From: Neckera pumila
Taxonomy: Eukaryota; Streptophyta; Bryopsida; Hypnales; Neckeraceae
Direction: 5' to 3'
Assembly (NCBI GenBank): GCA_963969595.1
Contig: OZ018408.1
Span: 44,269,022 to 44,333,021, forward strand
DNA length: 64,000 nucleotides
In this document: positions 26,992 to 51,428 of the stretch, piece after piece
Numbering within the stretch: the first letter of the stretch is position 1
Layout of the letters: the number at the start of each line of letters is the position of its first letter
The notes under the pieces: generated by a model
The model's database searches: none
Told to the model about the DNA's origin: nothing
Seen by the model: only the letters and a program-made list of their open reading frames with translations
Translations under genes and position numbers: made by a program

Positions 26992-27300
26992 ACCACAAGA
27001 ATAATCCTAGAACACTCAAGAGCTCATCGACGCAACCACCATTTTCAACATTTGAGCAAACATCGAGCTCTTCGCCAAAGACACAAAATTGGACACCGCA
27101 GAGAGCGTAGATCACCAAATGAAGCGCGGAGACCGTCGAAATGTGCGCAAGGAGAAGGGCTATGGACGGAAGCTCCGCAGGGGTGACATGCGGGGGGTGA
27201 GAAGTGTGGATGTGGTGGCGGAATGCTCAGCACGGAGCGAGAACGAGTGTTTGCTAAAACCCTAAAACCTGCTGTGAGGTTCCAGTTGGAAAGACCTCGT
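26992..27300 (-). promoter_or_regulatory. Upstream region of FTSHI5 with telo-box
   Basis: This GC-richer region upstream of the FTSHI5 start is the expected 5' UTR and promoter. On the plus strand it contains AAAACCCTAAAACC at about 27,257, matching the plant telo-box AAACCCTAA, a motif common near transcription starts of housekeeping, translation and organelle-related plant genes. No TATA box was identified. A short minus-strand frame here is probably part of the leader. Confidence 0.45.
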
Positions 27301-28184: not shown

Positions 28185-31100
28185 TTAGTGATCCCCTTGC
28201 CTACCGACCTTCACAGCGCTTTTCCATGAACTAATAGCTTCCTTGTAAGGAAAGTTCTGAAGGGAAAAATACTGTTGGCCAAACATGTGCACCACAAGGG
28301 GCAAATGCTTCCCCAATCTATTTCTATGTGTGGATTTCAAGAACTTCAATATAGAGAAACAACGTTCATCCTCAACAAACCCCGGTACCATACAACACCC
28401 GATCTCAGCCAACTTGAAATATTCAGAAATTAGCTTACTCAAGTGGCGGGACTGAGAAAGTTTCCGCCACAACTTGATGACTGGATTGACATCCAAGGCT
28501 TGGCTACACGCTGCCTCACAATTTCCCTTCATGGTGGCCTTGAACAAACCTTGTTGCAGGTCCAAGTTCGCAGCGTTTGACATCTCAAGGGCGGTATGAA
28601 GGTTGCCGCCTTCATACAGAGGCTGGCCCTTATTAATAGCTCGTGCATGACAGTAGAAGCCTTTCAGAACCGTCAAGTGGTGGGCAAAGCTGGCATCGGC
28701 GCCCTCTTGCCTCCAATACTGGGGGTATATTATGCCAAAGGCATCAAGCAATTCTTGCTAAGGGAACCTACGGTCCAATTCATCACTAAGGGATTGTGCA
28801 AGATCTGCCAAAGCAGCACACAAATTCACAAATGAGTGATATGCTTTGTAGAAGAAGATCATTGCCCTCAACTCCTGCAAGTTTAGAAGAAACCAACACA
28901 TGAATAACAATAAAGCCCATGACGTGAAACACGGCGTGGACGTGGACCAGCAGAATTCGGCGATACAGTTATGTCCAGAAAATAGTAGCTGATCCTGCAA
29001 AACAGCAGCCATACAACTACGTGCAAAGACACTAGTTCATACACCTATAGGACTAAGCAATGCTTCTCATTCCTAAAAAAAACAAAACAAACCATAAGGT
29101 GGAGTCCCGTACAAAGTAAAGCTCCTGAATTGAACAGTGAACATTGAATACGTTAAAATTTAAAAAAAAAATTGAAAAGTTAAAATCGTAAGTGCCTTAG
29201 TCATCATGAATGAAACAGCAAAGCCAAAAAACTCAGGATCAAGAACTACCATTAGATGAGAAATCAGCCCTGTGGAGGGCTGCGTGTTCCCAACCTGTGA
29301 GAACTTGTGAGAACTGCTGAATTCAGGGCCGTGGCAGCTCGCTGACATGGCCGAGTGACTGTCAAGTCGGAAAAAAATAATTTTTTTTTTCTGTTTTTTT
29401 TTTCATTTCAAGAATGTAAAAAAAAATTTTTTTTTTTTTTTTTTTGAAAATTTCTTGTCGGGAATAGCCATTCCCTGAAACTGCGGAGGGGGACTAGTGT
29501 CGGGCCCGGGCCCGAAACGGCCCTCCCGACCCCCCAAAACTCATCTAATGACATACATGCAAGGCCAAAAAAAATATGGAAACCAAAAAATAAACCACCT
29601 TGCAAAGCCAAAAAAAATTTGATGCCAAATTAAAAACCAATACCTGAGAACTACCGCTCCACGGAGGACTGCACGCGATGAAAATCTTGTTGCATAACAA
29701 ATATGTGCTCCCCAATTGCGCTATCATGGCACCTCGCATAGAGCTGGTTCACGGACAGATCAAAGAACAAATGGCATATACCCGAGTCACCTGGCAATTC
29801 TTTCCACTCCATACGGAAGTCATCGCTTTGAAGATTGATAAGGTCATTGTACTTTGGAAAGTCCTCCTTGCCATAAGCTGTGGCCGTATCCAGAAACATT
29901 CGGGCTAATTCATGCTGCCAAACTTTCACAGCTTGCATGAAGTCGCACATGAAAATATCATGGCTTTGAGAAAGCTTCATGAGACTGTACACTGCATTCA
30001 CCAATGGGATGAAACACGCCAATGACAACAACATTTCAACATTAGAGAGCAAGTTAAAGTTATCACCAGCACCCGTATTACCTTTTTGACCAGGACCCCC
30101 AGTCATGTCTAAGCCCATCTTCACAAGAAGCATGCCGTATTCAGCCATGATTTGCTGCGCAAGGCTCCTCATCAAGATCCACCACGTCTCTACGTTGCAA
30201 AGCATTTTGTTCCCCTTAGTTTCCATGAGATTAGCCAGTTTAGCCAGCTCAACGTGCCGCTTGTTACTGCTACAGAAATATGAGTAAACAGACTGGAATA
30301 GTGCCTCAAGCCGAGAGACCATTGGGTACTTGGAGAGAGTCTCCATGACAAGATTGAGCATGTGGCTCACACAATTGGCTCCCAATAAGAAGGGAGCCCA
30401 TCTATCTCTAATCTACGCTGTCACACCCGATTTAGGCCCCTGAAAGGTACTCACGCCATCAACCCCGAAGCAAATTAGTTTAAAAGCAATATGTTCATGA
30501 GAAAGACCTCCTTTATTAATGAAAGCCTGCATTATCACAGTTGTTAGAGTGTCTACCGTGCCACCGTTGTTGCGACAGGACAAGTGAAGCAAGTGGGGCA
30601 TTCTTTCCCAGCTTTGCATGGCATAAACATGGACACCGACCCATGAAGTAGTATCCATTGCAGTCACCTCGTCGGCACTAATCGAAATCACCTTTGCAAA
30701 CTGTACAATTTCCTTCAACGCTGTTAGAACAGAAGCATGCAAATGCTCCGACATCTCCCAACCTGTAATCTCAGACCAATGCTTAGGTGGTAAATTCTTT
30801 ACCTTCAAGTGTTTCAACAAAAACTGTGACCTCTCATAATCACACATGGGCTGACTATAACTGAGAATCTGAAATAGAATCGAGAACTGTACTCCCTTCC
30901 GTTTGAATTCGCTATCCAAGCCCGCTGTGAGTTGTTCCGCCACGGTGCCGCAATGCTTTCTGCCTGCCCAGACTTTGCAAAGTTTCAGATGCTTGCAGTC
31001 CGCCTTCATGAAAGTGTCGCCCTTGCTCAAGTGTTGAAGTGGCACACCGTCTTCTCTACAAGTCAGCTTGCCTTTGCGCTTTTCAAGATTGTCTAATTTC

Positions 31101-31600
31101 GGGACCATGACTTTCCTCCTCCCTGTCATCGCGGTACAGCTTGCACAAACGACACCAGTGAGATTGCCAATTGAATCAAAGTCTCCCCCCACCCAAGGAA
31201 ACCTGCAGGCCCACACTTCTTGCCAACGCCGCGTGATGGTCCCCGGAGTAATCTTCTTTCTCTTACGGGATTTGTCTGCGGACACACGTTTCTTCTTCTT
31301 TCCCCCCGTAACACAGAGTTCATCGTCTGTGGCCATGGGTGACTCATGCACGGGATCAGGAAGCTCAAGGGAAAGAACCATCGCTTCCGAAGGCGGATCG
31401 TGAGGGTTTGCTTGGGAGATCAAATGCGAGAGGCGCATCTCCAAAATGTGCGTGACCTCGCACCCAACCATGTCCATTGCCAACAGAACGTCAACAGCGC
31501 TGGGATTTGGGAGCAAGTACTTACCTATCCCATTTGTATTGCGGCTCGAGCCAAAACAACGGACCTTGAAGTTCTCAGGAAGCTTTAGGCGCGGAGGCAT
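28185..31600 (-). pseudogene. Decayed hAT-superfamily transposase
   Basis: Minus-strand frame from MPPRLKLPENF (start 31600). The N-terminal part has a BED/TTF-like zinc-binding stretch (RRWQEVW, FPW, VVCASC, PKLDNLEKRKGK). The transposase core shows ISADEVTAMD and CFGVDGVSTFQG, plausible first and second catalytic Asp regions. The C-terminus carries the hAT dimerisation signature, EDERCFSILKFLK followed by RNRLG. hAT enzymes cut and paste DNA and leave 8-bp duplications. The frame is broken by TAG at 30413-30415 (GVTA*IRDRWAP) and TAG at 28758-28760 (RRFP*QELLDAFG), each with coherent protein on both sides and each explainable by CAG to TAG. A further TAG at 29651-29653 lies next to a probable intron of about 28,875-29,643 whose phases do not match exactly. 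It is a separate insertion from the large element to its right. Confidence 0.85.
29430..29535. repeat. GC-rich palindrome within the hAT intron
   Basis: The intron contains the perfect 16-bp palindrome TCGGGCCCGGGCCCGA at 29500-29515. Around it, GTCGGGAATAGCC at about 29,457 faces a right side whose reverse complement is GTCGGGAGGGCCG (ending about 29,531), suggesting a miniature element of about 75 bases. Poly-A/T tracts lie to its left. The function is unknown. Confidence 0.55.
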
Positions 31601-32474
31601 TTCGACCCTGAAGAACAACGCAAATAATCGGGAAGACCACAAAGCAAGTGACCCTAAACCACAACAGCGAACAAGTGCACCACTATTGAACTACAACAAC
31701 AAACAACTAGAGCACTATTGAACCACAGTTCCAACGCAGTTGCCTGAAAACAAAAGCGCACAAAACAGGTAATCAGCAAGAAAGTATATCAAAGACAAAT
31801 CGTTCATAAAAAACTAGCAAAAAGCACAGACCGCAACGCAGTTGAAGTTGCACCGGATATGGAGCCCTTAAATTCACCGCAAACCTGAAGAAAAAAATCC
31901 CTCCTGAGCCGCCATTGGCAATTGACAATTCCGCAGTCACAAATCCAATGCACCAACAGCTCTCTGCAACTCTGAGCAGCCACCATTTGGGACATGTGTC
32001 ATGTATTTATTAGTTCCAACCTTGAAAAGGACAAAAAAAATACATTTTAAGCTTGGTCAAAAATACATGCACCTATAGGTCAGGAATGGGTCATTGGTTG
32101 GGAATGAGTGGTTCTAACTTACCATATAAAGTGGAAGCCCCCATAACCGTTCGTTTAAGCCATGAGGAATAGGTCATAAAGCCAGTATGGAAAACAATTA
32201 AATAGAAGGGAAGGCAAATGGGAGACTGTAAAATCCACCAAAAAAATTCTCTTGAATTCTAAATAATGCCTTCAGAAATCTTGATCAAAGTGCAAAATGG
32301 AAAATTAAAGCACCGTAAACCAATGCTCAGTGGCCCCATTTCCAAACACAAATCACAGAAAATCCAAGGGCCACAAAACCACGTGACAAGTGGAGTTTGG
32401 ACACTTGATGGGTGGATTGGGGTGCAGTCAAAGGGATTGGGTTCCGAGACGTGGAGGGAAATGGATGCTCCTAC
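31601..32474. other. Interval between the hAT element and the large TIR element
   Basis: The left part should hold the upstream region of the hAT transposase. Bases about 31,988-32,060 carry GGGACATGTGTCAT, ATTAGTTCCAACCTTGAAAA and GGACAAAA, a third partial copy of the interspersed repeat seen at 4.5 and 16.5 kb. No gene is recognised. Confidence 0.5.
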
Positions 32475-32950
32475 CTGGGGAATGCTGGGATGTGAGCGGG
32501 GAGCAGCGAGCGGCGAGCGGGGAGCAAGGATTCGTGAGCTTGGAGCATAAATATTGGAAGGAAGATAGAAAAGTTTGAAAAAATGAATAGAAAAGTGGAT
32601 GAAAGTTTAAGCAAACATGGATGAAATTTGAAAGAAAATTCATGAAATTGGGTGCAAATAAAGAAAGAAATGGAGGGAAATTCTGGAAAAAAATGGATGA
32701 AATGGATTGGAAGAATTAGATGAAAAATACGGATGAAAGTGGATGAAAAATACAGATGGAAGTGGATGAAAAACATGGATGGAAAATATGGATGAAAGTT
32801 GCTTAAAAATATGGATGATAGTGGATGGAAAACATAGATGATAGTGGATGAAAAACATAGATGATAGTGGATGAAAAACATGGATGAAAGTAGATGAAAA
32901 AATATGGATGAAAGCGGATGAAAATTTTGGATGAATTATAGCATATTTTT
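32475..32950 (+). repeat. Left terminal inverted repeat with GGATGAAAGT array
   Basis: A GC-rich outer part (32,475-32,550, repeated GAGCGG/GGAGC words) is followed by about 400 bases of imperfect tandem repeat built from GGATGAAAGT, GGATGATAGT and GGATGAAAAACAT. The right end has the same two-part structure in reverse complement at 48,700-49,050. Long open frames on the minus strand here are low-complexity products of the tandem repeat, not genes. Confidence 0.8.
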
Positions 32951-33430
32951 CATCTAATTTAAAATGAAAAATACGGAATTACATGAACAATATGGATAAA
33001 CCAAGCAAGGCAAAATTACAGGGCTATACTTTTAACTTCGAGGTCTAATTTTAAATGCAATGAACAATAATTACACTCATTCAGTAAGTGTCCCCATAAT
33101 CCGCGATAATTAGTGAGTTTAGGGTTATTACATGCCAGAAACTGTAAGTGTACTCATCAAATTATGTCATGACACGTGTTGGGAAGATTTCAATTTATTA
33201 ATGATGTTTGGATATGAAGTTTAGGGGTGTGGATACCTCATTACTCATTTTGCGTTTAGGGTTTAGGGTCCTAGTAAATGCTTCTCATTTTAGGCTGATG
33301 AACGGAAATGGTTTGATTTGGAAAGCTCATTTCTGTCTTTCTCATTTGTCTTTTGGTTCTAGCGTTGATTCATTTTTTTTTTCATTGTATTCTTACAGAG
33401 TCACTTGCTGGTGGATCCGGTTTTATTGAG

Positions 33431-33841
33431 ATGTCTTCCCTTCCAAAGTCGAAGGCTGATTTGCGTGAATATCTTGCTAAAGTGGATGAGCTGGTCGAGA
33501 GGAGGAATGGGAAGCTCCCTTTCTGTGAATAAGATGAAGTGAGGGCTCTTCTATGCCGAGGAGACAGTGAGAACTTGAGTTGGACCAAGGCTGCAAATTA
33601 CCAATTCCGCCACATGGAGTATTGCACAAGCATCGACTACAAAGGCAATTTGAAGGAGTGGGTGCGGGAGCCAATGTGGTGGACAGAGGGGGAGTGGAGC
33701 GGTGGACCAATCCGTCACCGTGCATTGGGAGATTATGAAGATGACATTTGGCCCGAGGAAGGGGGATACTACACTGACGCTGGCATTGACATCTTTTTTG
33801 GGGAGATCACTTATACAGAAGGCCCGGATTCGCCTGAATGA
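33431..33841 (+). pseudogene. Small acidic protein gene with one in-frame stop
   Basis: ATG at 33431 opens a 136-codon frame ending TGA at 33839-33841, interrupted only by TAA at 33530-33532 (codon 34). Text on both sides is clearly protein-like: KADLREYLAKVDELVERR before it and SWTKAANYQFRHMEYC, EPMWWTEGEW and DYEDDIWPEEGGYY after it. A splice acceptor TTCTTACAG lies 33 bases upstream of the ATG, so there is probably a 5' leader exon. The C-terminal half is very acidic and rich in W and Y. I do not recognise the family. The stop may be CAA to TAA. It lies between the left TIR and the 3' end of the methyltransferase gene, so it is a second cargo gene; partnership with ParB or the transposase is only a guess. 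Confidence 0.55.
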
Positions 33842-34539
33842 ACACTGCGCGATGAAGTTCAATTGCAGATTTACAATCGATGATAGTATAATATACTAAT
33901 AGCAGCCATATTGATGATTTGAGTAGTCTTGCCAATGGTCAGAAGAACCTTCCGTGGAACTTGTTGGCAATGGAGGTGGACACCACTTGCTTGAGTTTGG
34001 TGAGCATTTGTCCAAATTATGTAGGGCAGACAACAATTTGTATACATTACTGTGTTTTTGTCTATTGGAATAGCACATAACTTTTGGCTGCATTCCGTGA
34101 GTTATTCCTCCGAAACAGCAATTTTGTATGAAATGAAGCAGATGTATAAGTTATACTAGTGTCATGAAGGTTCAAGGAGATTCAAACAGAAATTTGGGTC
34201 CCCCTTGTGATCCATGAGGAGACAACTTCTGGAACGTGAACCTTGGATACAATGTCTTGGTACCGAGACATGGTTTAGGGAAGACCGAAGGAAACATCAA
34301 AACGGAAATTCCGGTTCAGGGGTCAATAATAAAGGTTTAGGGTCAACAAATTAATTCCAGAATATTGAGACGACGGTGCAAAATACAGCATGCTACAAGT
34401 CATGCCCAATTTTATAAACTGCATAGTCTAGAAAAAGAGCAAGCACATCTGGAATTTGAATACTACAAAAAAACATAGTCATGGCAAGAGGATGTACCAG
34501 AAATACTAGAGTCCAGAATAGCAAATAGGGAGACGTACA
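33842..34539. other. Intergenic spacer with GTCTCGG-type palindrome
   Basis: This separates two convergent genes and holds GTCTTGGTACCGAGAC at 34254-34269, a 16-bp near-palindrome of the class that recurs elsewhere in the element. No ORF is recognised. Confidence 0.5.
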
Positions 34540-37500
34540 CTATGCTGAGCTAGAGCTACCCTCAGTTTCTGACAAATCAGAATATGTTTTGATGGCTGAA
34601 TCATTCACGAATTTGAGAACACGTGGATCTACGAAGTGGGCCCTAGAAGCTGGCTGAGGGTTATCTCTAACAAAACGACGAGCAATCTCCTCCGCATATA
34701 CGGGTAGGTGATAGAGTTTTGGGGGGCTAGGAAAGAAACTTGGATTGGCAAAAAAAGGAAGATGTGTGGACGTCTTCACTTCTTTGGGATGCCTACAAAG
34801 CCATAGAAACACATGTCAGATTTGCACAAGTTTTGTTTCTAATGGGGCCAAATAAAAGGAGCTTAAGGAGAAACTTACTTACTGAATCAAGATGTTGGTA
34901 TGATATGTTGCATTGGTACGTCCTCGTCTTCAAGCTCTATCGTGGCACTAGACACGCTTTCTAGTATAGATTGAGGAATGATAGCGGCGCGCATCCCTGG
35001 AGCAATAACAGCGTCAAAGATAGCCTTGTCCGCTTCAAATGCAAGGACATGGTGACGTGTGGCCCGGCAAGCTTGAATGCTTGATCCTGTCATCAATCAA
35101 AATAGGAATAAGCGGTCTAGCAAACCGAAAGACAATGCTCCATGTGCATATGGATGAATGTAGAATAAAATATAAAAACAGAAGTACCTGTAGCAGCTGT
35201 GCAGTCCACAATCACTGACCCCGGTTCAGAGCAGCCTTCAATAAGCATCTGCATGAATTCGCGGTCCTTCTCCCGAGGTCCCCGCCATGGTATGTTGCCA
35301 TTCATACTAACATCTTCCTTGTTTGTAAAATTCTGAAGGATGCATGACAGCGGTGGCCTACTCATTATGTACCCGTGTCCTTCTCTTCCTCACAGGAGGA
35401 CAATGCAAGATGACAAAATATCGCTTACCGTCTTAGAGGGATCCGCAGGCGATGTCAAATGCAGAAGATTCATGCACAGGTATGTATCAAGTATGCGGAA
35501 TCCATAGGACTGGCAGCATCCAAGAATCTGGCTCTTGTGAGGAAGAGAAGGACACGGGTACATGATAAGTAGGCCACCGCTGTCATGCAAGTACTCTTGC
35601 GCAAAATCGAAGGTGGGCACCAAGAAGTCCGACTTGTACTTGTTCCACTTCGGAATGGGATTTGGTGGAGCGGAAACGGTAGGGACGTGGAGCCCTTCTG
35701 GAACGTCTACAATAATCAAATCTACCGCGGCCTTGGCAATGAATTTGCCATTGAAGTAGCGGTCCTTGTCACCTGAATGTTGGAGACAATAAGAAATTTT
35801 TAGGAAGTAGATCTTAAGATGAATAAGACGAGACTAGCTCAATGAACTTGGACCATGAAAATCTATGTCAAATGACCATTAGAACATAAACAATGTTGGG
35901 ATATTATTCACAAACCATGGCTAAGAATGCAAGAACATCGGAGAAGGCCTTCTGATTACTGGAAAGATCACCCAGTGACAAGTTCAGGATACACTCGTCA
36001 ATATCGGGAATTGGATCCAGGTTGTGAACAGTCGGTGTCAAGCCATGCACCAGTCTCTCCTGGGTCAAAGAGAAGCCAGATGAAGTGTCCTTCATTTCGA
36101 CTGCACTTCTAGCCGGTTCCTGAAACGCGATCTCCGCCTTCCGCTTTGTGTTTTTCTTCTTTGCCTTCTCCTGCTCCTTCACCTGCTTCGCGGCAAGCCT
36201 CTTGTATTTTGTATCTTCGGTCTTCTTCTTTGCTTCCTCCCATTTGTCCTCCTTTTTCTTGTCAGATGCTTCCCTCCTAGCAATGCCTTGGCACGCGCCT
36301 CCGGATCTAAGTTTGCAAACTTGTCGAACTCTATCTCAACATCAGTGGATTCCTTCAATGATGTGAAGAGAGCTTCCTCTTCGGGTGGAGTAGTCCCAAA
36401 GTTACACTCCAAGTACCAGGGGCATGCTCGAAGATGTGGAGTGGTCCATTTCTGTAGCTGAGTTGTTGAGAACATGCAATCCGAGGAGGATGGGGTCAAC
36501 CATGTAGTAAGAAACGGTGGTAAGTCCCCCTTCTTGATAGCCTTCTTTGCGTACAGCTCCAATTTAAAATATCTACAAACAAAAAAATGTTAGGACCATT
36601 TCAGATTTGCGACTCATTGATTCCGAGGAAATGAAATCAAAGTGAACTTGACTTACATGGTATCGAACCGCAATGAGGTCATCCCTCCAAACAAGCAACG
36701 ATCTAACGGGTCATATTCAAAAATCCTCCGTCACAACCTAGGCCGACCAAACGAATGTCTCGGCCCTGAAACACCATCCTAAATAGATATACCCATGCAT
36801 ACCATTTACAGTGTATCCTCAAAAGAATTGTCAAAAAACCCTAAGCTAGTGTACATTGAAATAGACGACGAGGATTTGTGAAGGCAGTGCTTCTCATCAG
36901 GGAAGGCTTAAGGATTCGTCTTGGGGCCGAGAGTGGACCGCGAAGGAGATAGGTCATGCATAACAATGAGTGAAATCATATTCAATCGAAGCAATTAAAT
37001 AGTGGGACATATATATGGTGAACAATGAAGCGTAGACTATACATGTAGATCAAGCGCTTCACGGCACCAATAGCACCTCTGAAATCCTTAAAGGGCTCCG
37101 ACATCTTGTAGGCATCTGCTCCCTTAAACATGCCCGTGTACGCCAGATCCCATAGCTTCAATCTCCAATCTTCTAGGTATTCTGGTAGAGTCTGTGGATC
37201 AGTGGGAACAGCCATGTTGATTGGGATATTGTCAACGCAAATAATACTCTCAAACATCTCCGTGGCGGTTTCCTCCAACTGCACAAAGAACAATATGAGA
37301 GTTACAGATCAAGTGGAAGCAGACATGAGATTGCCAGAGCCTAGAGATGATAGTAGAGCACTGGAGATACTAATGGGAATTATGGACCGACTTACCCCTG
37401 CGTACCAACACGCCTTCACGAGGAATAGTAACAATCTGTCTTCATTAACAGGTCGAGGTGGAAATTTTTGAGCCTCCCAAGTAGGACCAGAGGCATTCAT

Positions 37501-39508
37501 CCACTTCAGCCACTTGATCTTGTATACTGGGTTGGCCACTGCTGTGGCAATCATCTGGAGCTTTTCGAGAGTTAACTCCGGAACAGCAAAGAGACTCCAG
37601 TGTCTCTCAATCTGCAATCCAATGATTGACCATATTAAGTACCAAACATCAATAAATGTGAATCAGTAGCACATCCACAAGGATAGAGTCATACCTCCTT
37701 TACAAACTCCGGACCGTGCTTTGGGTCTGCTACCGCAACAATCTTCGAAAGTTTTTGGCGATAGTTAGCAGTGGACTCCTTGATAGAGATCCTCATTGCC
37801 ATCGCAACTCCTTCAGGAGTCACCTCATCATTGGGAGTATCTTCTTTGTACTTCCGAACTGCATCATCCGTAGCAGCGGATATCTCTTGCTAGCAATGCC
37901 CACAAAACATATTATATTAAAATATGGTAAGGTCAGAAAGCAAGTCGTGATGAACATCATAACAGAAGAAGGTAAATAATATCAGTTATACCTTGAATAT
38001 GAATGAGGTGAAGACCTCTAGAGGCATGGAGTACCATTTACTTCGAGTACTCTGCTTACAGGTGAGTACTTCATCAGGATTGAGGAGCTCCATAAACTTC
38101 TCGAGCTCCATACCTCCGTACTTCTGCACTCGGTATAAGGTATGCACGAGGTTTGTCTTGATATGTGAGTTCTCTGTATGCCTGAAATTACAATGTCACA
38201 AGAAACATAGCATTCATAAATAATATGTGATTTACAATCATTAAGAAAATGCATTTCCAAATTCAATGACAGAACAGAAATCATACTTGTTGATATCGTG
38301 CATTGCTTGCATGGTTGCTCCAATGTGGTTTTTGGTATCCAGAATGATGGAATCCACGCAAATATGCCAAGCTCTCTCCGTAGGGTGAAGCCGCATGATA
38401 TAGTTCATCCAAGCCAATTGTCTGTGATTCCCATCACAGACATAAAACTTGTAGTCTACAAGGTGCTTCAATGCAGGGAGTGACTTGAGTCGCATGTTGA
38501 ATTGGTCATTCAGTGAATTCCACAGAGGTCCCCATTCCTCTTTCTCTGAGTCCGTGAACATCGCCATCTGGCCTCCTTCATCTGCAATTGAGACATAGAA
38601 CACACGCGCTCCTTCTTCGTATCCGCGACTGAATTGATTTTCGAGCAATATCAAGTCACAAGAAAGGGTAGGACAAACCATCGGCATCGGCACCAACCTA
38701 CATAGCGGAATTCGCATTCGAGACAGGTCCGAGGTGGTTAACCTCAAACTCGATATCATAGAGATCGTGTCCATTGTCTGTGATCTCCTTATGTCGTCCT
38801 CCATGTAGCTCTCGGGAACACCCGGTATATGACTCACTCCACCGTCATCCATGTCCTGATCCAAAATCATGGACGTAGTGGATTTGTCTATGTTCTGCAG
38901 TTTTACATGATTCATTGTTAGTGTATGAATCAATCAGAGTTGAAACAGGATCTCCTATATTCATTACAAGAACTCAAAATGGCGTACTAATGAATGCTAA
39001 TTACAGTGGCGGGCCATCATGGGCAAAAATATCATTTTCAATCAATGAGGAATTATATATAGACAACGCTTCATATTGCACAATTGCATGTCTCCAATAC
39101 AGCATGGTAGTGTCCACAACAAAAAATTAATACATCATCCTCGGAATCAAATCCGGATGTGACATCCGCGATGTCATATTCACATGAGCAGAAATCCTCG
39201 GATGACAATGATCCTGATAGAATCTGAACTGTCTCATTTGATCCTAAAGATGTGCAAGCCGAATTGGGGGTAGGGAGATATCCCCCTCGATGTATATTGT
39301 CAATGAATAGATGTCAGTCCCGGAGTAGGCCATTGATGTTTACCCCAGGACTATGCGCGGGAACTTCTGGTGCAATGTCAGTCGGATGATTTTGCAGCGC
39401 CTGCTCCAGTGGCACATGATTAACAATAGCGTCAGGCGCCATAGGCACCGGTGGGTCGATGGCATCTTGCGACAACGGCACTGGATGGTTGAAGGCATCT
39501 TGAGCCAT
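34540..39508 (-). pseudogene. ParB-like domain plus class-beta amino-methyltransferase, multi-exon
   Basis: I joined 13 exons with GT-AG borders: 39508-39344, 39223-39134, 38894-38287, 38181-37992, 37889-37695, 37611-37396, 37278-37043, 36725-36657, 36572-35916, 35764-35429, 35332-35188, 35086-34879 and 34792-34540. Phases agree at every junction, giving about 1,120 residues. The N-terminus has an 11-residue repeat (MAQDAFNHPVP and two relatives). A ParB-like motif YVCDGNHRQLAW lies near residue 238, a Lys/Glu-rich coiled segment near 700-750, methyltransferase motif IV DLIIVDVPEG near 829, motif I VIVDCTAATGSS near 964 and motif II HHVLAFEAD after it. Motif IV before motif I is the class-beta order of N6-adenine and N4-cytosine DNA methylases; both motifs deviate from the usual (D/N/S)PP(Y/F/W) and FxGxG. 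Two lesions are visible: a one-base shift near 36,280 and an in-frame TGA at 34887-34889. A 5' non-coding exon may lie near 42.6 kb. DNA methylation is inferred, not shown. Confidence 0.68.
35341..35589. repeat. 58-bp inverted repeat pairing a methyltransferase exon with its next intron
   Basis: Bases 35341-35398, inside the intron 35333-35428, are the reverse complement of bases 35532-35589 in the exon encoding YLHDSGGLLIMYPCPSLPHK, with three mismatches in 58. The loop is about 133 bases. In the minus-strand transcript the exon copy comes first and the antisense copy follows in the intron, ending eight bases from the acceptor. The pre-mRNA can therefore fold into a long hairpin covering the donor region. 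Confidence 0.85.
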
Positions 39509-40640
39509 AGGCAGCTGCGGGTCGATGGGGTTCACCTGAAAGTAATAATTGCACATTATACAATGCCAACATGAAACTCAACCACTGATTTGATTACTGC
39601 TACACTTTGATAGAACGATATGATGAAATTGGATTCAGTCTGGAACCAATATAACCTATCATGGTCCCAAAATCACATCCTAATAATTACAGACAAAAAG
39701 CAGGAACACAATCTCATTAGGTCAACTGATACTCAGAAACGATTTTAGGCCAACCTACGGTTCAGAATCCCGGCTTATGATTTCAAAACATGGTCTCCAG
39801 CAATCTCTCAAGATCTGGACATTGTCAAGATTTTGGCAATTTATGCTTAACCATGTAACTCAGATATGTTCTCTCGGGCCCGAGTCATCTTGGGTGCATG
39901 GCAGGGTATGCAATGAGAGGGTGCATTCAGGACTCCAAGTGTCATACATGTCTTCACTAAATAAGGATATGTTTGTTAGATCACACTATAGATTTGAGAT
40001 TCATCCGAGACTCTCAATGAATGAAATCAAAAGCATCGAGCCAGGAACACAACTCTCGGGCCCGAGATGTCTACCCCACCTTCTCGACTATGCATAAACC
40101 ATGATCATTGTCTACAGTTCCTCAGATTCCCTCCACATTTCTAGGCAATGAGACTAATAAATAACTGAGCATTAAAGCATTGTCATGAATTTTTGGCAAC
40201 CGTGACGGTATTGATAAATCCAAACTCTAATTCGTGAAGCATCCCGAATTCAAGGAATTAAGCATAGACCTAATTCCCCAAATTATACTATCAGCATCGA
40301 GATTACATTGAACTTGTATTACACTCAATATATAACATCACATGCTAACTGATCATACAAATTCATAGAGGTTCAAATTTCCTCCGATCCCGATATCAAT
40401 GGTTATCTGTAAGAGGACGCCTTACTGGTTTGGGACAAACTGGATTCCTCTGCATAGTCATGCCGACAGTATTCAATTCTCGGCACCGAGGCTTTTGCCA
40501 CCACTAGTGAGTCATGCAAACCTGGTTACTCATATTTGAAATGCATATGACCTAATTTCATAAAATTCATAAATTACTGACCAGTACGACCAATTTTGCA
40601 CTCTATCGAACAAGAATTGTGAAATCTCTGAGAACTACAT
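39509..40640. other. Spacer with two perfect CTCGGGCCCGAG palindromes
   Basis: Upstream of the methyltransferase coding exons. Perfect 12-bp palindromes CTCGGGCCCGAG occur at 39873-39884 and 40055-40066, and CTCGGCACCGAG at 40479-40490. They look like diverged leading members of the 170-bp array that follows. No gene is recognised. Confidence 0.55.
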
Positions 40641-41900
40641 GAAGTCATCTGGAATTTTTGCATAACTGCGGTATGGCAAATTAGCTCTCGACACTAAGAG
40701 CTCTGGGAGACCGAAACGGCTTTGCATGTTATGTAAAATTCAATGAAAGCACAGCTACAGGAATTCGAGGTTTCACTACTGTAATGCTTGCTAGTTTTTC
40801 TCCAAATCATATTATGAAAGTATAGCTATGCATGACCATCTCTGGGTAGACCATGTCTTGGTCCTGAAAGCTGTACAGGACCGAAGGGATTATGCATGAT
40901 AACTAATCCTCAACAAATGCACAGATACAGGAACTCAGGATTTCCTTATGATAATACTGGTTAGTCATTCTCTAACTAAAATTACGCTATCACTGCTATG
41001 CATGGCCGTTGTCGTTTGGACCATGCCTTGGTCCCGAGAGCGTTACGAGACAGAACACATTATGCATGTCATGCAATCCGAAATGAAAGCACAGATACAA
41101 GAACTTGAGATCTCCATATGATAATATTGGTTAGTCATTCCCTAACTAAAATTACGCTATCAATGCTATGCATGGCCGTTGTCATTTAGACCATGCCTCG
41201 GTCCCGAGAGCATTGCGAGACAGAACAAATTATGCATGTCATGCAATCCGAAATGAAAGCACAGAGACAGGAACTTGAGATCTCCATATGATAATACTGG
41301 TTAGTCATTCCCTAACTAAGATTATGCTATCAATGCTATGCATGGCCGTCATCGTTTAGACCATGCCTCGGTCCCGAGAGCGTCACAAGACAGAACAGAT
41401 TATGCATGTCATGCAATCCGAAATGAAAGCACAGATATAGGAACTTGAGATTTCCATATGATAATACTGGTTAGTGCTTCCCTAAATCAAATTAAGGAAT
41501 CTAAGCTATGCACGATTGTCTTTGGTTAGACCATGTCTCGGTTACAAGACCACTCCGAGAAAGAATGGACTTTGTATGATATGTAAACCTCAACAAATGC
41601 ATAGATACAATCACTCCAGAATTCTGTAGAATTTCACTGGTTAGTATTGCCTTAAATCAGATTAGGCAATCAATGCTATGCATGACCATCGCTGGGTAGA
41701 CCAAATCTCGGCCCCGAGAGCTCTACGAGACCAATAGGGTTACGCATGATATGTAATCTTCATTGTAAATACAGATACAGGAACTCGGGATTTCCTTGTT
41801 ATAGTAGTGGTTAGTCTTTCCCTAATTCAATTTAGGCAATGAAAGCTTAGCAGGACCGTCGTTGGGTAGACCATGTTTCGTTCCCGAGACGTTACTCTCA
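40641..41900 (+). repeat. 170-bp tandem satellite array
   Basis: The word CATGGCCGTT or a close relative begins at 40831, 41001, 41171, 41341, 41511, 41681 and 41851, an exact 170-base step; an older unit is visible from 40661. Each unit contains a CTCGGTCCCGAG-type near-palindrome in the same register (41197, 41367, 41537, 41707, 41877, and weaker at 40857 and 41027), then ...GAAAGCACAGATACAGGAACT and GGTTAGTCATTCCCTAA. Units at 41.0-41.45 kb are the most alike and the edges most diverged, the usual pattern of a homogenising tandem array. It lies between the divergent methyltransferase and transposase genes. Confidence 0.92.
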
Positions 41901-42199
41901 TAGAACAGAGTATACATACTCCATGAGTCGGTGGACACAAAAAATACTAATAACCTGTACTCGGGAAAAGCAGTGAAGGGACCGAGACCAAAATCTGAGT
42001 GAACTAGCCCAGGACATTTGACTGACACACCTACCATAACACAATCAATGACTACAAATATACAGACTTTGTCCAAGGTCTGAACAGATGCTCTATCAAT
42101 TTCCTTGATCCCTATTTCGCGTGAACCCGTCAAATGATATTGCAAGTGAGTGCACTCTATTACGATATGCATACTAGTGAGTCCACAAAACCCTCTCTC

Positions 42200-42970
42200 G
42201 AGACCGAGACAACACCGCAAGCGCAGAAGTCTTCGTCCGCTAGCTGAAAGAGAATGATCAGATAACCAAATCCTTAACTTTCTTCAAGGGATCCCTAGCC
42301 TAAAAGTCTCGCAATCTTGACTCGCTACCCCTAACTTATACTGCCGCTCGTTAATTGATCTCCTAAGTTGTAGCTGTGATAAACCAAATCGAAATTGTAA
42401 ATAACGATCCTCTTGTCTAATGCTTGGACTGACGCAATCCTGCTGCAAATCTCGATCCTAGTTTGGCGACCTTATGAGATCTCAGATAGCTATGAGAGAG
42501 TGAAGACATTTCAAGACCGGAGTATCACGCGAGAGACCTTAACCTTGTTCATAAGAAAACGAAGTATGCTATACCTCATTCGCAGTCGAATCCGCCTCTC
42601 TGCCAGGTGCTTCCCCTTCTCCGTCTCCAAGCTTCCCGCGGCGCGGTCAAAGATTGCGCGACATGATAAAAGTACTTGCAATGCACAAACCCGTGTTCCA
42701 AACCTCACACACCCAACGAATAAGCATGCATCAATACAAGAAAGCAACGCTTGGGAAGGTCGGCGGCGGACTACTCTCAAGCCTCGCGGCGATGTGTGCC
42801 TGTTTAGGGTTCTTGAGGGCCGTTTTCTTCAGATCTCGGAGTGGGGTTTGCGAGGGCAGTCCGGGTATACGACTTTCCGATTCTATTCCGGGTATGGAGT
42901 TCCCGCTGACGGGGTACGGTATAAGGTGACCTGGGAAATGAAGGTTACTTTTGGCATTTGAGTTTCGTTT
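42200..42970. promoter_or_regulatory. GC-rich block, possible shared promoter / leader exons
   Basis: Between the divergent methyltransferase (-) and transposase (+) genes, 42,560-42,960 is distinctly GC- and CpG-rich and open on both strands. On the minus strand a donor (GAATGAG followed by GTATAG) at about 42,575 could end a non-coding leader exon for the methyltransferase gene. The plus-strand 182-codon frame (42413-42961) has no recognised motif and may be chance. Promoter function is inference from position and composition. Confidence 0.35.
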
Positions 42971-44029
42971 TGTCTACGCTGAAGAATTGGTAATCCTTAT
43001 TTTTTTATTTCTAATTCTCGGCTGTGATTACTAATCCCCCGTATAGCTAAATTAGTTTGAGGGAGTCTTAGTGTAGAGGTACTCATGCCAATTGTGGTCA
43101 TACATTGGAGTGTACATATGTATTTAGGAGTTCGTTTGTCAAGAATTCTTGATATTTCTGAATACCTTAGAGCTATATACAACAAGAATTGACCGAAATA
43201 TGAAAAATCTTGAGTATTCTGATGTAATCTATTCAAGAGAGTCAAGAGCAAGTGCAATATCCATGAAGAATTCGACGACATATGCTATTTTTAATGGAAT
43301 GTCAGAATACTCTCTTATATATAAGAACATTAATATGGTGGAGAGCACTATGACATGTTTCAGAATTGCAGATGCTCCAAACAGTCTAACACCATTGCTA
43401 ATCTCTCCACTGGTGTCAGATTAGATATTAATAATGGGATAATACGCTATCATGTATTTATTAGGTGTCCACTATGGATCAACTGCCCTTACTTGTCTGG
43501 TTTGCGCTCAAAGGAGGGTCATTAATTATATGTAACTTGTTAGAATGCAATTATATTCAAAATCACAATCGACCGGCGGCGGTTCAACGTGTCACATATT
43601 ATACTACTAGCCCTTTCTATTGTCCATGGGCTCCGTATTGAAGCCTATCGCGACACCTTGAATATTTGTTTCACAGACCACTGACACTAACACTAACATT
43701 AGTGAATCAAATGTGCTCGTTGGGAGGCGGCGTATAATTGAGTCATACGCATAATTTTGAATTTGAAAGGGCTTGGCATTTACTTAACCATCAATGTGTA
43801 TACGGTGACTGGTCGCAAAGGTATTCCACCCAACTCTTTACCACTGATTAATCAAGTTTTATTGCCTTCTTGATTATAAACGTTTTCCTGATTGAAATGA
43901 TGAGTATCACCATGTTGTCAACTCTTCTGTGCAAATGGCTTTCATGATGTCTGCTCCCGGTTAGTTAGTCTTGTGTATTGGGTCTGTGGTTTCTGTGATG
44001 CAGTGATGTTCCTGTTTTATCTCTTCTAG
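42971..44029. other. Leader or intron region of the transposase gene
   Basis: AT-rich, with no gene. It ends with the acceptor TTATCTCTTCTAG at 44029, so it probably includes a first intron of the transposase gene. Confidence 0.45.
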
Positions 44030-44077
44030 AAGCAGTACTATATATTGTCGCGATCAGTTTCATCTGGTCCCGTTGGG

Positions 44078-47000
44078 ATGGTAGACTTTCAGGACATGGT
44101 TGTTGTCAAAGCAAATGGTGAAGGCGTACCCTGGATTTTTCGTGTAAGCCAAGATGGATTGGCATCAGTTTCGGCAGCTCGCTTGAGTCTTCGGTTTCAA
44201 TTTACAGCAAGCTCGATCCATGTTGACGAAGATGTATTTGATTGCAACTCAGGAGAACTTACGCACACCATAGGACAAGTGCCTGCTTTGGTTGGAGAGG
44301 ACATTTCTTGGAACTTGAAGCCAGGAAAATATAGAGCATATGGGGTCCCTTGCCACGAGAATGAAGCTTCTGTAGACTTACAAACACCACGTCGGTCCTC
44401 CTTGTTGTCGTCTAAGAAGCCTCCTCTGATACATGTTAAGATAGAACAAAGCCCCCCCAATGTCACTGTCCTTAGTTCTGACTCAGATACAACCTCTCCT
44501 GAACCTCTCTTGAGTACACACGCTCCCTCTCCGATGACGACATTCCCCTCGCTTACTAGCGTGAAGTCACCGGTCATTGAGTTCAAAAATGACTTAACAA
44601 GATCCGTAGCATTGATCATTCAATGCTTGAGAGGTTTAAGGAACTTGAAGGGCTGTAGGAATGTGTTGGCAAAAATTGATTATGACCAGATTTGCATTCA
44701 GAGAGTGACCGACTTGCCTCCAAGTTTTAACGGCGATCTCATATTTGAGCTACCGCCACTAGATAGTGGATCCTCTCCTTCTCATGCTCGGTAGATGATT
44801 GGGATGGATAAAAGATACGATGGCCATGTTTGGTCAAAAACCGTCATTACGAACATCACTAATCGTATGGGATTGTCGTTTCGCACTTCCGTTTGTATAG
44901 GGCATCTTAGATGCATGAACAGTAATTGCGAGTTCCTTAGTTGGGTTCACCGAATCAGAACTGTGAATGAATTGGAATGGGAAGGACTGTGCCCCACGGC
45001 ACTTGATGTTGGACAATTGCACCCTCTTGGGTCATCCTTGGTTTGCAAAATTTGTAAAGAACCTCCGAGTTGTATTGCAAGGTGTTCTGTGAGAGTATAC
45101 TATGTCATCGGCAACTGCAACATGACCCGAGCATTTGTACATTTAGGCATTCATGAGCATCCCGTAAAGTAGGGAGAATTGAGAGACATGAAGGACCTTA
45201 CTCGGTCTCTTATTGGGCAGCAGATGGAGAAGACACCGACTGCGACAAATTCTTCCATCGTCCTTGAGGCTACAAAAGAGTTGCTTGGGGACCTTCTCTT
45301 GCGTCCTGATGGGATGATGCCGAAGACAATGGACTTTACTGAGCTGGTACCAGTATTACACAAGTGCAAGTACTTCAGCTCTCCAAGTATGCGAAATGAG
45401 GTAACTTCTTTTAAGTATTTGAGGAGGTTCGGAGTCATCGACAGCATTACTAAGTTGAGGGGTTCCAGTACTTGGGCTTTTGTTCAGGAGAGCAAATTCC
45501 CTAGTCAAGGAACTGATGCTGATAAAGTATTTGTGTTTAAGATGTCCAAAGTAGGTCCGGGAAGTGGAGTGGACTTAGTAAAACGCATGCAAATGGGCGG
45601 TGACCTGGAAGATGCATGGATAATGTTTGATCATGTAAAACGTGTTATAGAGTGGACCACTATGGCGTGCCATGTCTATGATTCTTTATACTGTCGAGTT
45701 ATGACAATCGCTGTTTGCGACATGCAATCAGAAGATTGAGCAGCCCAGATTCTGTTCTAGCAAAATTTGAATTCCGTTCTTGAGAGACACAGTGTACCTC
45801 AGACTCAATTTAAGGGATTCATGGCTGACAGTGCTCAAGCAAACTGGAATGCTATGAGGATGATTTATGGATCGGGGGACATCAACGTGCCAATGGACAA
45901 TCGGGAAAGGACTTGCCTCTTTCATTGGACTCAATCGATGGAGAAGCATACCAAAGCTGAAATTCGTAGTGACCTACAAGACCAACATCGACACCTTTGC
46001 AAACAATACAAGAATGCTATTTCGCCGGAGGAATTTGAAACCCGTTACTTGGCTATCAAGGCTTGGTGGCTATCATCGGGTGCTACAACGGTAGAAGGCT
46101 TGCATCGACTCGAGTTGTGGCTCTCATTTTGGCATTTCCGATATCGGCAATGGGGCGGCTTCATGCAACTTGTAAGTGTCTTGTAAGTGTCTTCATTAGA
46201 CTAGTTCAATAGCATTTAAACTTATAATCAAATGGGAACTGTCGGGGGATAATTGAGTCATCCGCTAATATTGTTTCGTGTCCCTAAACCAGCCTATTCA
46301 TAATGCTCAGTCGGTGGTCGGAGTGATAGACAAGATAGAGTTCCATGGTCCAATTATCAGATTTCCATTTCCACGGGTTGGTGTCTAACAGAACATATGC
46401 TCAGAAATCCTTGCTTGGGTCGCTCGCCAGATGTGTTGTCTCGGGTCCGAGACTCATTTCTCGGAGGCTTTGAAAATGACTTGTAGGTCATGCTGCATTA
46501 TGTGACTTTGGTGCAATGGTTGGTAGTGGTCCTCGAATTGTCCTATTGGGGCCTATAGAATAGTAATATTTGGATTTGTCATGGCCCCTTTCTACCCTTC
46601 TTCCATGCAACTATTGTGGAGTGGTTATTTGTAAGTGTAAATGAGCATAATAAAATTCCATACCCTAAACCCCCTAACTGCATTTATGGCACTTTGTAGA
46701 ACAATTGTTTGCATGTCTCTTTCTATGATTCAGTGACACCTTTACTTTCTTTCTGTAGAATCTCAGCGAAATTGAGCTTGCAGAAATGCCGTCGTGCAAC
46801 CTAGCAGAGACGGTACACAATAAGTGGCTTCAACAATGTGGTAATCGTGGTAACGACTTGTACATAGCCATTGTTGACAACTTTGTAAGAGCTTTCATGC
46901 AAATGGTTAGGTACTACTAGTATCTAAAAGGAAACGAACCCGGGACAGGACCTGGAAAGGAAGAGCTGTTACTTCGAGTTGCTCAACGATCGGCTGTGCG

Positions 47001-48227
47001 GACCGGAAATCCAAAGGTCCTTACACAAGCTGTATCTAGCGTCTCAAGTGTTGAGGAATTTGTGAATAGAGAGCCTCCTTTGGAAGGTGAAGAAGTATTT
47101 GGATCCCAAAAGCGGAAGGCGGACATGCCATTAGGTTGCAAGCACGATTCTTATAGACCGGATAAGGTTAATTTTTCCTATCCTCGCATCCAAATAAGAT
47201 TGTACAGAGGCTCGTCAAGTGTTCCCTATTTAAATACAATTACAGAAGACTTGTCGCACAGGGAAGATGCAAACATATTGGAAGCAATGGAAGCTGAAGA
47301 GAATCTAGGACAAGAGAGAAGCAAATTGTCTTCACATGCGACAGCAATTCAAGAAAGTGACTGTGACAAAATGGAGTGGCACATAGCAAGACTTCCGAAA
47401 GCATCTGCAAACACTTGCTTTGCACTACAAGCAGTATCCAAGAAGAAGTGCATTGCCAAGATTGTCCAGAACAACGTTGCCACAGCAGCACCCACTTATA
47501 CAGGTATGATGGTCAATTACAGAAAGAATCGGAATGATAGGATGGAATTCTTCTTTTGCAATGACGACATTGAAAGGTGCGTGAAGGGAACCAAACGAAA
47601 ATGGGTGTTGTCCCGTCCTTCCATTCCTTCCATTTGGCCAGTGAAAAGGGGCACTACTCTGTCCAAAGCTGAAATTCTAGCTTTGGAAGCTGCTGGCTTT
47701 CGACTCCCACAACATGAATTGATTTCACCACGGAGACTACTTGGCGGAGAGCCAGGGATAGATTTAGTTTCTACCTAGCTTGTTCCCTCGTCCGCAGACG
47801 ACCACCCCAAAATTCGATCAGGAAAACTGATTCGCCGAAATCCGAAGGCCCCCTCCACAAAACAAGCTAACAATTGTGCCTCTGCCGTGACCTTGAATGC
47901 ACACACATCGAGTGACCATGGTACCTCACCCTGGTTTTGGCTGTGTAGTTTGTTTGAATGCAGGGGTGGAGCCACAGGCTCAGCAATATATGCTTACAAT
48001 TTCTTCGTTCCCAAACTGCAATTGCCCTTACTTCAAGGAAAATGGCAAGAAAAGCATTGGGGAAGCGAGGACAATGGGCGAATTGCAAGCATTTATATTT
48101 TGTATTCACAGTCATTTGCAATTTGCAATCTACCGATGATGTCTTCATTCATTCTTCGAGTTTTAGTTTTAATGAAGTCAAGCGAGTGCTTCTCAGCGAG
48201 ATATTGAATAACTTAGATTTGAACTAG
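44078..48227 (+). pseudogene. Decayed MULE-like transposase with SWIM finger
   Basis: Exon 44078-46171 and exon 46759-47778 join in phase across a GTAAGT...CTGTAG intron. Order of parts: a variable N-terminus; a zinc-finger-like region (VCIGHLRCMNSNC ... HLGIHEHP, a C..C/H.H pattern as in the WRKY-GCM1 class); CDMQSED with the probable first catalytic Asp; FMADSAQANWNA with the second; CLFHW, a CxxH motif that MULE transposases carry after the second Asp; KADMPLGCKHD; then a SWIM-type finger split by frameshifts (CNCPYF at 48,017 and CKH at 48,084). In-frame stops are at 44792 TAG, 45170 TAG, 45737 TGA, 45758 TAG, 46918 TAG (YY*YLKG) and 47776 TAG. The protein is coherent on both sides of each. 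MULE enzymes mobilise elements with long inverted repeats, fitting the TIRs around it. MULE membership is by motif, not by search. Confidence 0.75.
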
Positions 48228-48699: not shown

Positions 48700-49050
48700 A
48701 TTTTATTTTCACATTTTTCATCTCATCTCAGAAATTCTTTTTCCATCTTTCTTCATCCATTTTCATCCACTGTCATCCATTGTCATCCACTATCATCCAC
48801 TATCATCCACTATCATCCATTGTCATCCACTGTCATCCACTATCATCCACTTTCATCCATTTTAGCTTACATTCATCCATTTTCATCCATCCAAATCTGT
48901 TGACTTACCTACTGTCATCCAAATATTACCCATTTGCCACATCCAATTTTTTTTCTAAAATAAAAAAATCTATGCTCACCGCTCACCAATCCCCGCTCAC
49001 CGCTCACCGCTCGCCGCTCCAAGCTCACGTCCTAGCAACGCTCGCTCCTA
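48700..49050 (-). repeat. Right terminal inverted repeat with CATCCACTAT array
   Basis: A tandem array of CATCCACTAT, CATCCACTGT and CATCCATTTT (48,741-48,895) is followed by an outer GC-rich block with repeated CCGCTCACCGCTC words (48,975-49,050). Read in reverse complement it is GAGCGG-rich text followed by GGATGATAGT repeats, the structure of the left end at 32,475-32,950. Confidence 0.8.
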
Positions 49051-51428
49051 CCTTACAAAGTTATAAGAGGTCAATTCTTTTTTGGTAAGATGATTCAACA
49101 TTTTTTCTTCAACAATATGTAATATTGATTTTGGAGATATGAATAATGAGAGCATCTTATCAAGTGGCGTTTCTAGCCACCTAGCACTTTGAGGTGTCCC
49201 TACTTTAATTGGGTTTGAAAAATGTTGAAAAAAGATGCTTTAATATAAGAGATATTTGTTATGATGAATTATCCTATTTTGGCCACAATATTTGATCCTA
49301 CGACTTAGAAGACTATGAAAATATGGATTTTTTTCCCACACACATGGAGAAATAATATACCAAGTAATAAGAAGTGAAATTGTGATGACAAATTATGAAT
49401 TAGTTATGGTTTTTTGAAGAGGTTTGTGCTAAGGGCTAGAAGTGTCTTTAGGTCACACCAATAATAAGAAATTCCATTAATGGTAACCATAATCATTTAT
49501 TATAAGTTGGACATAACAATTTTCTAAAATGATTATAGTTCTTTAATGGTACCATTTCCAATCAATACATGAGCAAGCCCATTTGGACAACCCAAAAATA
49601 TCATTGTCAAATCTCAATTGCATCTTTTATTGAAATCATGTCATATTTTTGCTTTTTACATAGGCATAATGGGCTCATTTTTAGAGGCCTCAATAGCTTG
49701 GAAGCTAACCTTAACTACTCGTGTGCCTAAAGTAGTTTGAATAGACATCTAAGCATAGATTCTATAGTTGTGAAATTGTCTTAGTTTTTGTTCACTCTTA
49801 TTGACAATTGGATGGCTATTCCAAATGCTTGTAGCATGTCTTTTTGGAACCATATGAATAAACTAATAATTTTTAAAAGCATTGATTATATGTGTACTTA
49901 AAATCAACTTTAGACTCTTGCATTGAGAGAGTGTACATTTCAAAGAAGAATCTTTATAAGTCAATTATTATAGTATAGTCAAGATTAAATGTACATATCC
50001 AGTAGTAGAAAACATTGTCCTAAACGACTTGTCCACAATGAATGTAGCAGTTGTTTTATGTCCACAATAACTACAAAGAGACTATTGCAATCATTGTGGA
50101 CAAATTATTTATAGCCTGTTTTTTACTAGTGTAGCTCCAATTATATGTCAATTCCAATTTATTTTTAGAAATTGGCATGATTATTCCTTTGAGAACAAGC
50201 CCTGTAACCACTTCAAGTCATATCACTTATTAGTTAGAAATTACTTAGATATTCATGATTTTGGACCCCCTTGTAAAATATTTTTTTTCCCTTAAATGTA
50301 TGGTATACATTGATACGGATATGGGTATACGAATACAATATATGGATATGAATATTTAGCATTGCATACAATACAACTTACAAATGCATGTACAATATGG
50401 AAGTGCAAGTATGTACTACTTTGACATATGGATATGGTATACGATATATTGATTTAATATATGGATATTGCATACAGTCGCATGTTCCATATCAATTGTT
50501 ACAACATATGCATGAAATTAAGACATAAGGACTAGAGAATAATGCGGGGGGTAATGACAATGAACAAATTTTATTTTTTTTGGAAGGATGGGGGGTAATG
50601 AGGAATAAATATAGTTTTTTATTTTAACTTTACAACTAAGTATAGTCTCATCTTAGTGTACAAAAATTTCCATTTTCATCACATGTATTGCAAAAAAGGA
50701 TACATATCCTTATAGTTGGAGACGGTCAATCCACAAAACACAATTGAATGACATTCTTTTTAGGTTTTAAGAGGAAACATCCACATTTACATTTACAAGA
50801 TTCAAATGTTTTGAATAAAAACGTATTGAATTTTAAAAAAAATTAGTCATCAAAAATGATACAAAGTTGGAAAAATGGAATAATCGTATAAGTCAGGATA
50901 CAAAAGTTGTAGCAATCTTCTAAACCATATTTATTACCATTAATAGTTTATCATGATATTGTACTTTCAAGAATGTTTTATAATTTTAAAGGTTTATAAA
51001 CTCTAAAATGCTACACATAAAATTAACATATTTTTGCATATCAATTTACATGTCATTGATTAATACAATTTATGTTGTAAATATATGCATTACTTAAATA
51101 TCAAATCATCAAATCATTTTACATATCTTGCCTTTTGTGTCTACAATTTTTATCAATTTTAATGCTGAATAATATTTTTATTTTTATTTTGTTTTAGATA
51201 GAGATGTTTGAATACAATAAACAAAACTATTAAGACTTATGTGTCATGAATATTTTGTAGAAATGGATTAGGAAATTATATTTTATTTGATATAGTTTAT
51301 TTCATTCACAAATTTTCTTCAAAAAAAATGGAAAGTTGTTGAGACCTATATTAAGGCTAAATCATCAAGGACAAAGAGTGTCGGAGGGAGTGAATTTCCA
51401 ACTTCAATCAATCAACTTGCATATCCTC
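49051..51428. other. AT-rich non-coding stretch with ATGGATATGG-type repeats
   Basis: No gene. Bases about 50,290-50,480 are an irregular repeat of ATATGGATATGG, GGTATACGAT and related words. The same cryptic repeat occurs at about 56,815-56,950, 59,770-59,830 and 60,175-60,255. Confidence 0.5.

Follow-up and report, generated by a model that had tools for sequence, protein, structure and literature searches.

The closest described counterpart of the locus studied here is Sola1-1_Ec32, a giant element of 21.5 kb from the brown alga Ectocarpus, in which a protein of 1104 aa is encoded opposite to the transposase and combines ParB-like and N4/N6 DNA methyltransferase domains (PMC12477816). The paper also cites similar transposon proteins from green and red algae and describes giant families of this sort as often having broken transposase genes. 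A second point of comparison is VANC, which binds a short motif (YAGTATTAY) in the introns and in the intergenic and terminal non-coding DNA of VANDAL21, its targets often being tandem repeats (PMC5735166). The third is the prokaryotic Bce_0392 of Bacillus cereus, a ParB domain fused to an adenine methylase (PMC5512222). Such loci bear on how eukaryotic transposons use bacterial-type DNA-modification proteins. We have analysed a 64-kb stretch of Neckera pumila DNA (contig OZ018408.1, positions 44,269,022 to 44,333,021; hereafter the window, with positions counted from its first letter), in which an intron-rich gene for a putative ParB-methyltransferase protein (the ParB-methylase gene) lies inside an element with terminal inverted repeats (TIRs). 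We lean, with a little more belief than doubt, to the view that the gene serves a 16.6-kb TIR transposon as an accessory gene whose product of ~1.1 thousand residues would join a ParB-like part to a class-beta methyltransferase fold and recognise its own element via the palindrome TCTCGGNNCCGAGA.

The TIRs (32483-32555 against 49037-48965) were identical at 58 of 73 positions (79%; blastn minus-strand match, E 5e-13). The 10-mer GCTCCTACCT had exactly two sites in the window when both strands were considered, at 32467 and 49044, directly outside both TIRs. The element is therefore 16,567 bp long (32477-49043) and is bounded by a perfect 10-bp target-site duplication, which supported the placement of the gene within a TIR element by a preliminary description of the locus. 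Mutator-like elements (MULEs) have target-site duplications of 8-11 bp, and the one found here would suit such an element; we have filed it as a TIR element only. A DIRS-type retroelement, a kind that carries a methylase, was rejected, because the element ends in TIRs and is flanked by a target-site duplication. The ratio of observed to expected CpG (uncorrected for coding content) was 0.67 in the element versus 0.52 and 0.46 in the flanks, and the element is therefore without sign of strong CpG decay.

The ParB-methylase gene (minus strand) and a transposase-like gene (plus strand) are arranged divergently. The latter consists of a single frame with four in-frame stops (44030-46186), followed by further open stretches up to 47778. 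We call its product transposase-like from its place in the element and from a D...C-x-x-H pattern of the sort seen in MULE/hAT-type enzymes. The read-through protein, which is broken and may be divergent, had no Pfam match up to E = 10, separate pieces of the gene had no real one, and the PDB sequence search returned nothing for the protein. Since the frame is otherwise open over more than 2 kb, its decay may be recent. A viral contig carrying the transposase motif (L016) was discarded as a chance match, out of frame with the phage-like open reading frames (ORFs). The small ORF at 33431-33841 is a possible third gene of the element.

On the minus strand, between 38894 and 34540, we have phased 11 exons and 10 introns, with GT...AG joins and introns of 83-272 nt. 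The in-phase minus-strand structure proposed in the preliminary description was thus recovered, with fewer parts than the 13 exons and 12 introns it had counted. The exons sum to 3158 nt and have a GC content of 0.47, versus 0.37 in the introns. In the interval 34500-39600, ORFs of 100 aa or more number seven on the minus strand, of which six are in the gene model and one, of 128 aa, is outside it, and three on the plus strand. For comparison with the minus-strand count, 300 dinucleotide shuffles gave 1.22 on average and never more than 6. The longest minus-strand ORF, of 230 aa, was reached in one of the 300 shuffles. Two extra 5' exons, at 39508-39344 (from the ATG at 39508) and near 39243, are doubtful, being open with joins that are not clean. 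Two splice sites, the donor that follows 37038 and the acceptor that precedes 35764, are weak and were picked for phase; the donor after 34879 is a choice between two adjacent GTs.

The gene does not read as the one clean frame previously assumed. It bears a frameshift near 36269 and in-frame TGA codons at 36733 and 34889, the former being in frame only if the chosen acceptor is used. Because of this frameshift and the two stops, we call the copy broken; it is decaying. The intron at 35428-35333 contains a 58-bp inverted copy (95%) of sequence from the adjoining methylase exon (35341-35398 versus 35532-35589), which fills 58 of its 96 nt, and a hairpin in the transcript is possible. Rfam at gathering thresholds gave no match in the 64-kb window.

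A class-beta DNA methyltransferase fold is supported for the predicted C-terminal part. Using the 226-residue part starting at DRYFNG as the methylase query, we obtained PHROGs matches to families 6952 (E 6.1e-5) and 3008 (E 1.2e-4), both named DNA methyltransferase, and five weaker ones, all named methyltransferase or DNA methyltransferase. Pfam N6_N4_Mtase matched the spliced half at E 0.0043, under the curated cut-off, versus 0.26 for the unspliced exon alone; splicing therefore improves the match. A DNA methyltransferase subfamily of NCBIfam was found at 0.011, far under its cut-off, and there were weak side matches to alanine dehydrogenase families. By tblastn, 34 phage records were matched with weak E-values (up to 1), and among the 20 listed, 19 were annotated as methylase or methyltransferase and one was unannotated. 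No match was found in plasmids by tblastn, and the PDB sequence search gave three chance-level rows only.

Alignment with hhalign to six phage methylases gave a probability of 97.4; the aligned span was residues 130-188 with the default path and 2-194 with the relaxed path. The highest value among 200 shuffled queries was 7.94; against the same profile, the ParB exon scored 0.39 and methylase residues 1-115 alone 26. On the relaxed path, the motif IV block was aligned with VDLIIVDVPEG, and motif I with IVDCTAATGSS. Motif IV thus precedes motif I, the class-beta order that the preliminary description had recognised, and the motifs it had named (DGNHRQLAW, DLIIVDVPEG and DCTAATGSS) were all present. 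DCTAATGSS arises solely through the joining of two exons.

The class-beta catalytic motif is (D/N/S)PP(Y/F/W). Here, motif IV reads DVPE where DPPY is expected, and alanine stands in place of the first glycine in motif I. The enzyme activity of this copy is doubtful for these two reasons, and with motif IV as DVPE we do not claim an active class-beta enzyme for it. The same replacements would favour a pseudo-methyltransferase, in which the fold was kept for DNA binding and catalysis was lost, the protein acting as a cofactor of transposition or transcription and not as an epigenetic writer. We consider this a substantial possibility, short of an even chance; against it, the state of the motifs was read from one decayed copy only. 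As to the mobile methylation or partition system suggested earlier, methylation is in doubt because of the DVPE motif, and partition is unlikely because the element is chromosomal. Partition was rejected as a function, there being no sign of a separate replicon. The putative long residence of the gene fits its intron-rich structure.

The ParB box has the pattern G-x-x-R-x-x-A, which DGNHRQLAW matches. When the ParB exon was aligned by hhalign with ten proteins (nine from phages and YbdM of E. coli), the probability was 1.2, over 19 residues around DGNHR; this profile set includes a second Microcystis phage ORF, annotated as ParB/sulfiredoxin and unlike the rest. There was no match for the ParB part in Pfam, PHROGs or NCBIfam, and the PDB sequence search returned nothing for it. 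The tblastn search with the ParB exon reached 11 phage records and one plasmid record, at E of at least 0.2 and none annotated as ParB. The AlphaFold2 model of this exon, made without an alignment, had a mean predicted local distance difference test score of 31.5 and was discarded. With a profile that was not significant and family libraries that gave no match, the ParB identity stays a motif-level reading, strengthened by the same architecture in print. The profile evidence anticipated in the preliminary description was obtained for the methylase (PHROGs and hhalign, with N6_N4_Mtase under cut-off) and was not significant for ParB, for which the motif and the published precedent stand.

We have then turned to the 14-bp palindrome TCTCGGNNCCGAGA. 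Allowing at most one mismatch, it has 10 sites, all within the element and none in the other 47.4 kb; with up to two mismatches there are 14, again all inside and none outside. At up to three mismatches, 21 sites lie inside and 11 outside the element, and background therefore begins there. Shuffles of the element (n = 200) yielded means of 0.035, 0.365 and 3.94 sites and maxima of 1, 3 and 10 at up to one, two and three mismatches, respectively. For the whole window, 32 sites at up to three mismatches were observed; 100 shuffles averaged 8.35 and peaked at 15. Copies within the 170-bp tandem array are not mutually independent, and seven of the 10 best sites lie outside it. A motif-blind palindrome scan (6-base arms, spacers 0-6, element minus arrays) ranked TCTCGGNNCCGAGA first with seven sites, the runner-up (four sites) being the same palindrome read in a shifted register; applied to three stretches of flanking DNA, the scan listed A/T-type runs in its eight leading rows. 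By the gene model, all 10 best sites are non-coding. Seven lie between the divergent genes; the other three are single sites in an intron of the ParB-methylase gene, in a putative intron of the transposase and beyond the 3' end of the ParB-methylase gene.

We propose that the protein would bind TCTCGGNNCCGAGA, both where it lies centrally between the two diverging genes and where it occurs in introns or in the flank on the 3' side, and that methylation of these sites may be added in intact copies whose motif IV works. Binding or methylation would mark the element as own, and the likeliest benefit would be that host silencing is escaped or controlled, in the manner of VANC proteins. It is by analogy that we infer binding, methylation and an anti-silencing or regulatory outcome through TCTCGGNNCCGAGA. 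In its furthest form, the proposal is that a prokaryote-like DNA-binding and methylating protein, together with an array and a scatter of its own targets in non-coding DNA, may form a self-recognition pair giving an element-specific epigenetic mark or an anti-silencing switch; this we put forward as a speculation that is probably not correct.

Several observations weigh against own-element recognition by the ParB-methylase protein. The ParB profile score was topped by two of 100 shuffles, and with DVPE at motif IV catalysis may be lost. The palindrome was spotted by eye first and tested afterwards, and among the 14 sites found when two mismatches are allowed, the one at 36758 overlaps an exon start. 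Conservation within the 170-bp array favours the palindrome columns only slightly (0.85, the average being 0.78; window rank 9 of 157), a weak preference. No close relative of the ParB-methylase gene turned up in the phage and plasmid records or the viral and genome contigs covered, the contig scans confirming none. The link between protein and palindrome is itself a proposal; the transposase or a host factor could be what uses the site.

That TCTCGGNNCCGAGA is a site of the transposase, or of a transcription factor of the host, and is not used by the ParB-methylase protein is a serious contender to which we give rather less than half of our confidence. The position of seven of the 10 best sites between the divergent genes is promoter-like and agrees with it. 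However, the single sites in the ParB-methylase intron, in the putative transposase intron and past the ParB-methylase 3' end do not, and the element ends bear different repeats, which would be better placed for a transposase.

The gene could also be a captured host gene carried as a passenger, in the manner of Pack-MULEs and with no role for the element. Its many introns are compatible with capture, and plant elements are known to capture genes (Pack-MULEs are named in PMC12477816), but the same domain pair is reported as a transposon accessory gene, green and red algae being cited for similar proteins, and the gene faces the transposase-like gene across a shared central region with repeated palindromes; hence, we regard a mere passenger as improbable. 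Finally, a chance run of open frames, or exons from different genes, is largely refuted and retains almost no credence: two weak splice sites and three lesions would allow it, but phase holds at the other splice sites, exons and introns differ by 0.10 in GC, and it takes an exon junction to create one of the methylase motifs.

Outside the element, the minus strand at 22696-27006 carries an intronless ORF of 1436 codons with AAA and Peptidase M41 matches and no HExxH motif, which we take to be probably a plastid FtsHi-type protein. Long minus-strand ORFs at 28185-31690 resemble remnants of another transposase, with no real Pfam match; we presume that they are perhaps hAT-like.

Table 1. Coordinates of the TIR element, its predicted genes and the TCTCGGNNCCGAGA sites in the window
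Feature	Position	Strand	Basis
Target-site duplication, left copy GCTCCTACCT	32467..32476		10-mer twice in window
Left TIR, GC-rich	32477..32560	+	blastn match to right end
Left subterminal array, GTGGATGA-type repeats	32640..32935	+	inverted match to right array, E 6e-18
Small ORF, 136 codons, one in-frame stop	33431..33841	+	without Pfam match
TCTCGGNNCCGAGA site, one mismatch	34255..34268		
ParB-methylase last exon	34540..34792	-	exon joins
ParB-methylase exon, second half of methylase motif I GSSIQACRATRHHVLAFEAD, in-frame TGA at 34889	34879..35086	-	
ParB-methylase exon, VIVDCTAATG as first half of motif I	35188..35332	-	PHROG 6952 match spans junction
ParB-methylase exon, motif IV as VDLIIVDVPEG, weak acceptor	35429..35764	-	hhalign
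ParB-methylase exon, frameshift near 36269, Lys/Glu-rich stretch	35916..36572	-	
ParB-methylase short exon, TGA at 36733 if acceptor used	36657..36765	-	
ParB-methylase exon, weak donor	37038..37278	-	
ParB-methylase exon	37396..37611	-	
ParB-methylase exon	37695..37889	-	
ParB-methylase exon	37992..38181	-	
ParB-methylase exon, ParB/Srx-like motif YVCDGNHRQLAW	38287..38894	-	motif only; profile not significant
Candidate first coding exon, ATG at 39508, junction to next exon unsettled	39344..39508	-	
Exact TCTCGGNNCCGAGA copy	40054..40067		
170-bp tandem array between divergent genes, each unit with a palindrome or its remnant	40677..41895		
Exact TCTCGGNNCCGAGA copy, inside 170-bp array	41706..41719		
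Transposase-like gene with four in-frame stops up to 46186, then further putative exons	44030..47778	+	
Exact TCTCGGNNCCGAGA copy, putative transposase intron	46439..46452		
Right subterminal array, inverted versus left	48723..48889	-	
Right TIR	48960..49043	-	
Target-site duplication, right copy	49044..49053		
Further TCTCGGNNCCGAGA sites with one mismatch (starts)	36919, 39872, 40478, 41196, 41366, 42196		

Compared by description only, the locus resembles Sola1-1_Ec32 in its putative domain pair (ParB at motif level), in predicted protein size and in the gene lying on the strand opposite to the transposase, here a transposase-like gene. The host of Sola1-1_Ec32 is a brown alga, whereas that of the element described here is a green plant, and motif IV as DVPE and a repeated palindrome are found here, in difference from that description. 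Sola elements have a target-site duplication of 4 bp, unlike the 10 bp found here. The green and red algal proteins are, by the citing description, similar proteins of transposons. Proteins of the Bce_0392 type have the ParB-methylase fusion that is proposed here but are prokaryotic and intronless, unlike the gene described here, and the ParB part of this gene is without significant match in phage or plasmid records.

The likeness to VANC of the Arabidopsis VANDAL elements lies in an accessory protein encoded by a transposable element and in short motifs in non-coding DNA, often in tandem; the VANC motif is non-palindromic, whereas TCTCGGNNCCGAGA is a palindrome. To our knowledge, VANC has no ParB or methylase domain. 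A VANC family was absent among the matches of the Pfam scan, with its presence in Pfam unchecked. The parallel would be one of logic and not of descent, the two systems being apparently non-homologous.

ParB-methyltransferase accessory proteins of algal transposons are already in print, and the kind is not new. The palindrome TCTCGGNNCCGAGA beside such a gene appears to be new. The excerpted literature that we have surveyed names no target motif for a published protein of this kind, and within it TCTCGGNNCCGAGA would be the first proposed cis target. An element-confined palindrome next to the gene opens the idea that the protein may bind and modify its own transposon to direct assays of binding and methylation and, if true, the locus would provide an independent, apparently non-homologous parallel to VANC-type anti-silencing.

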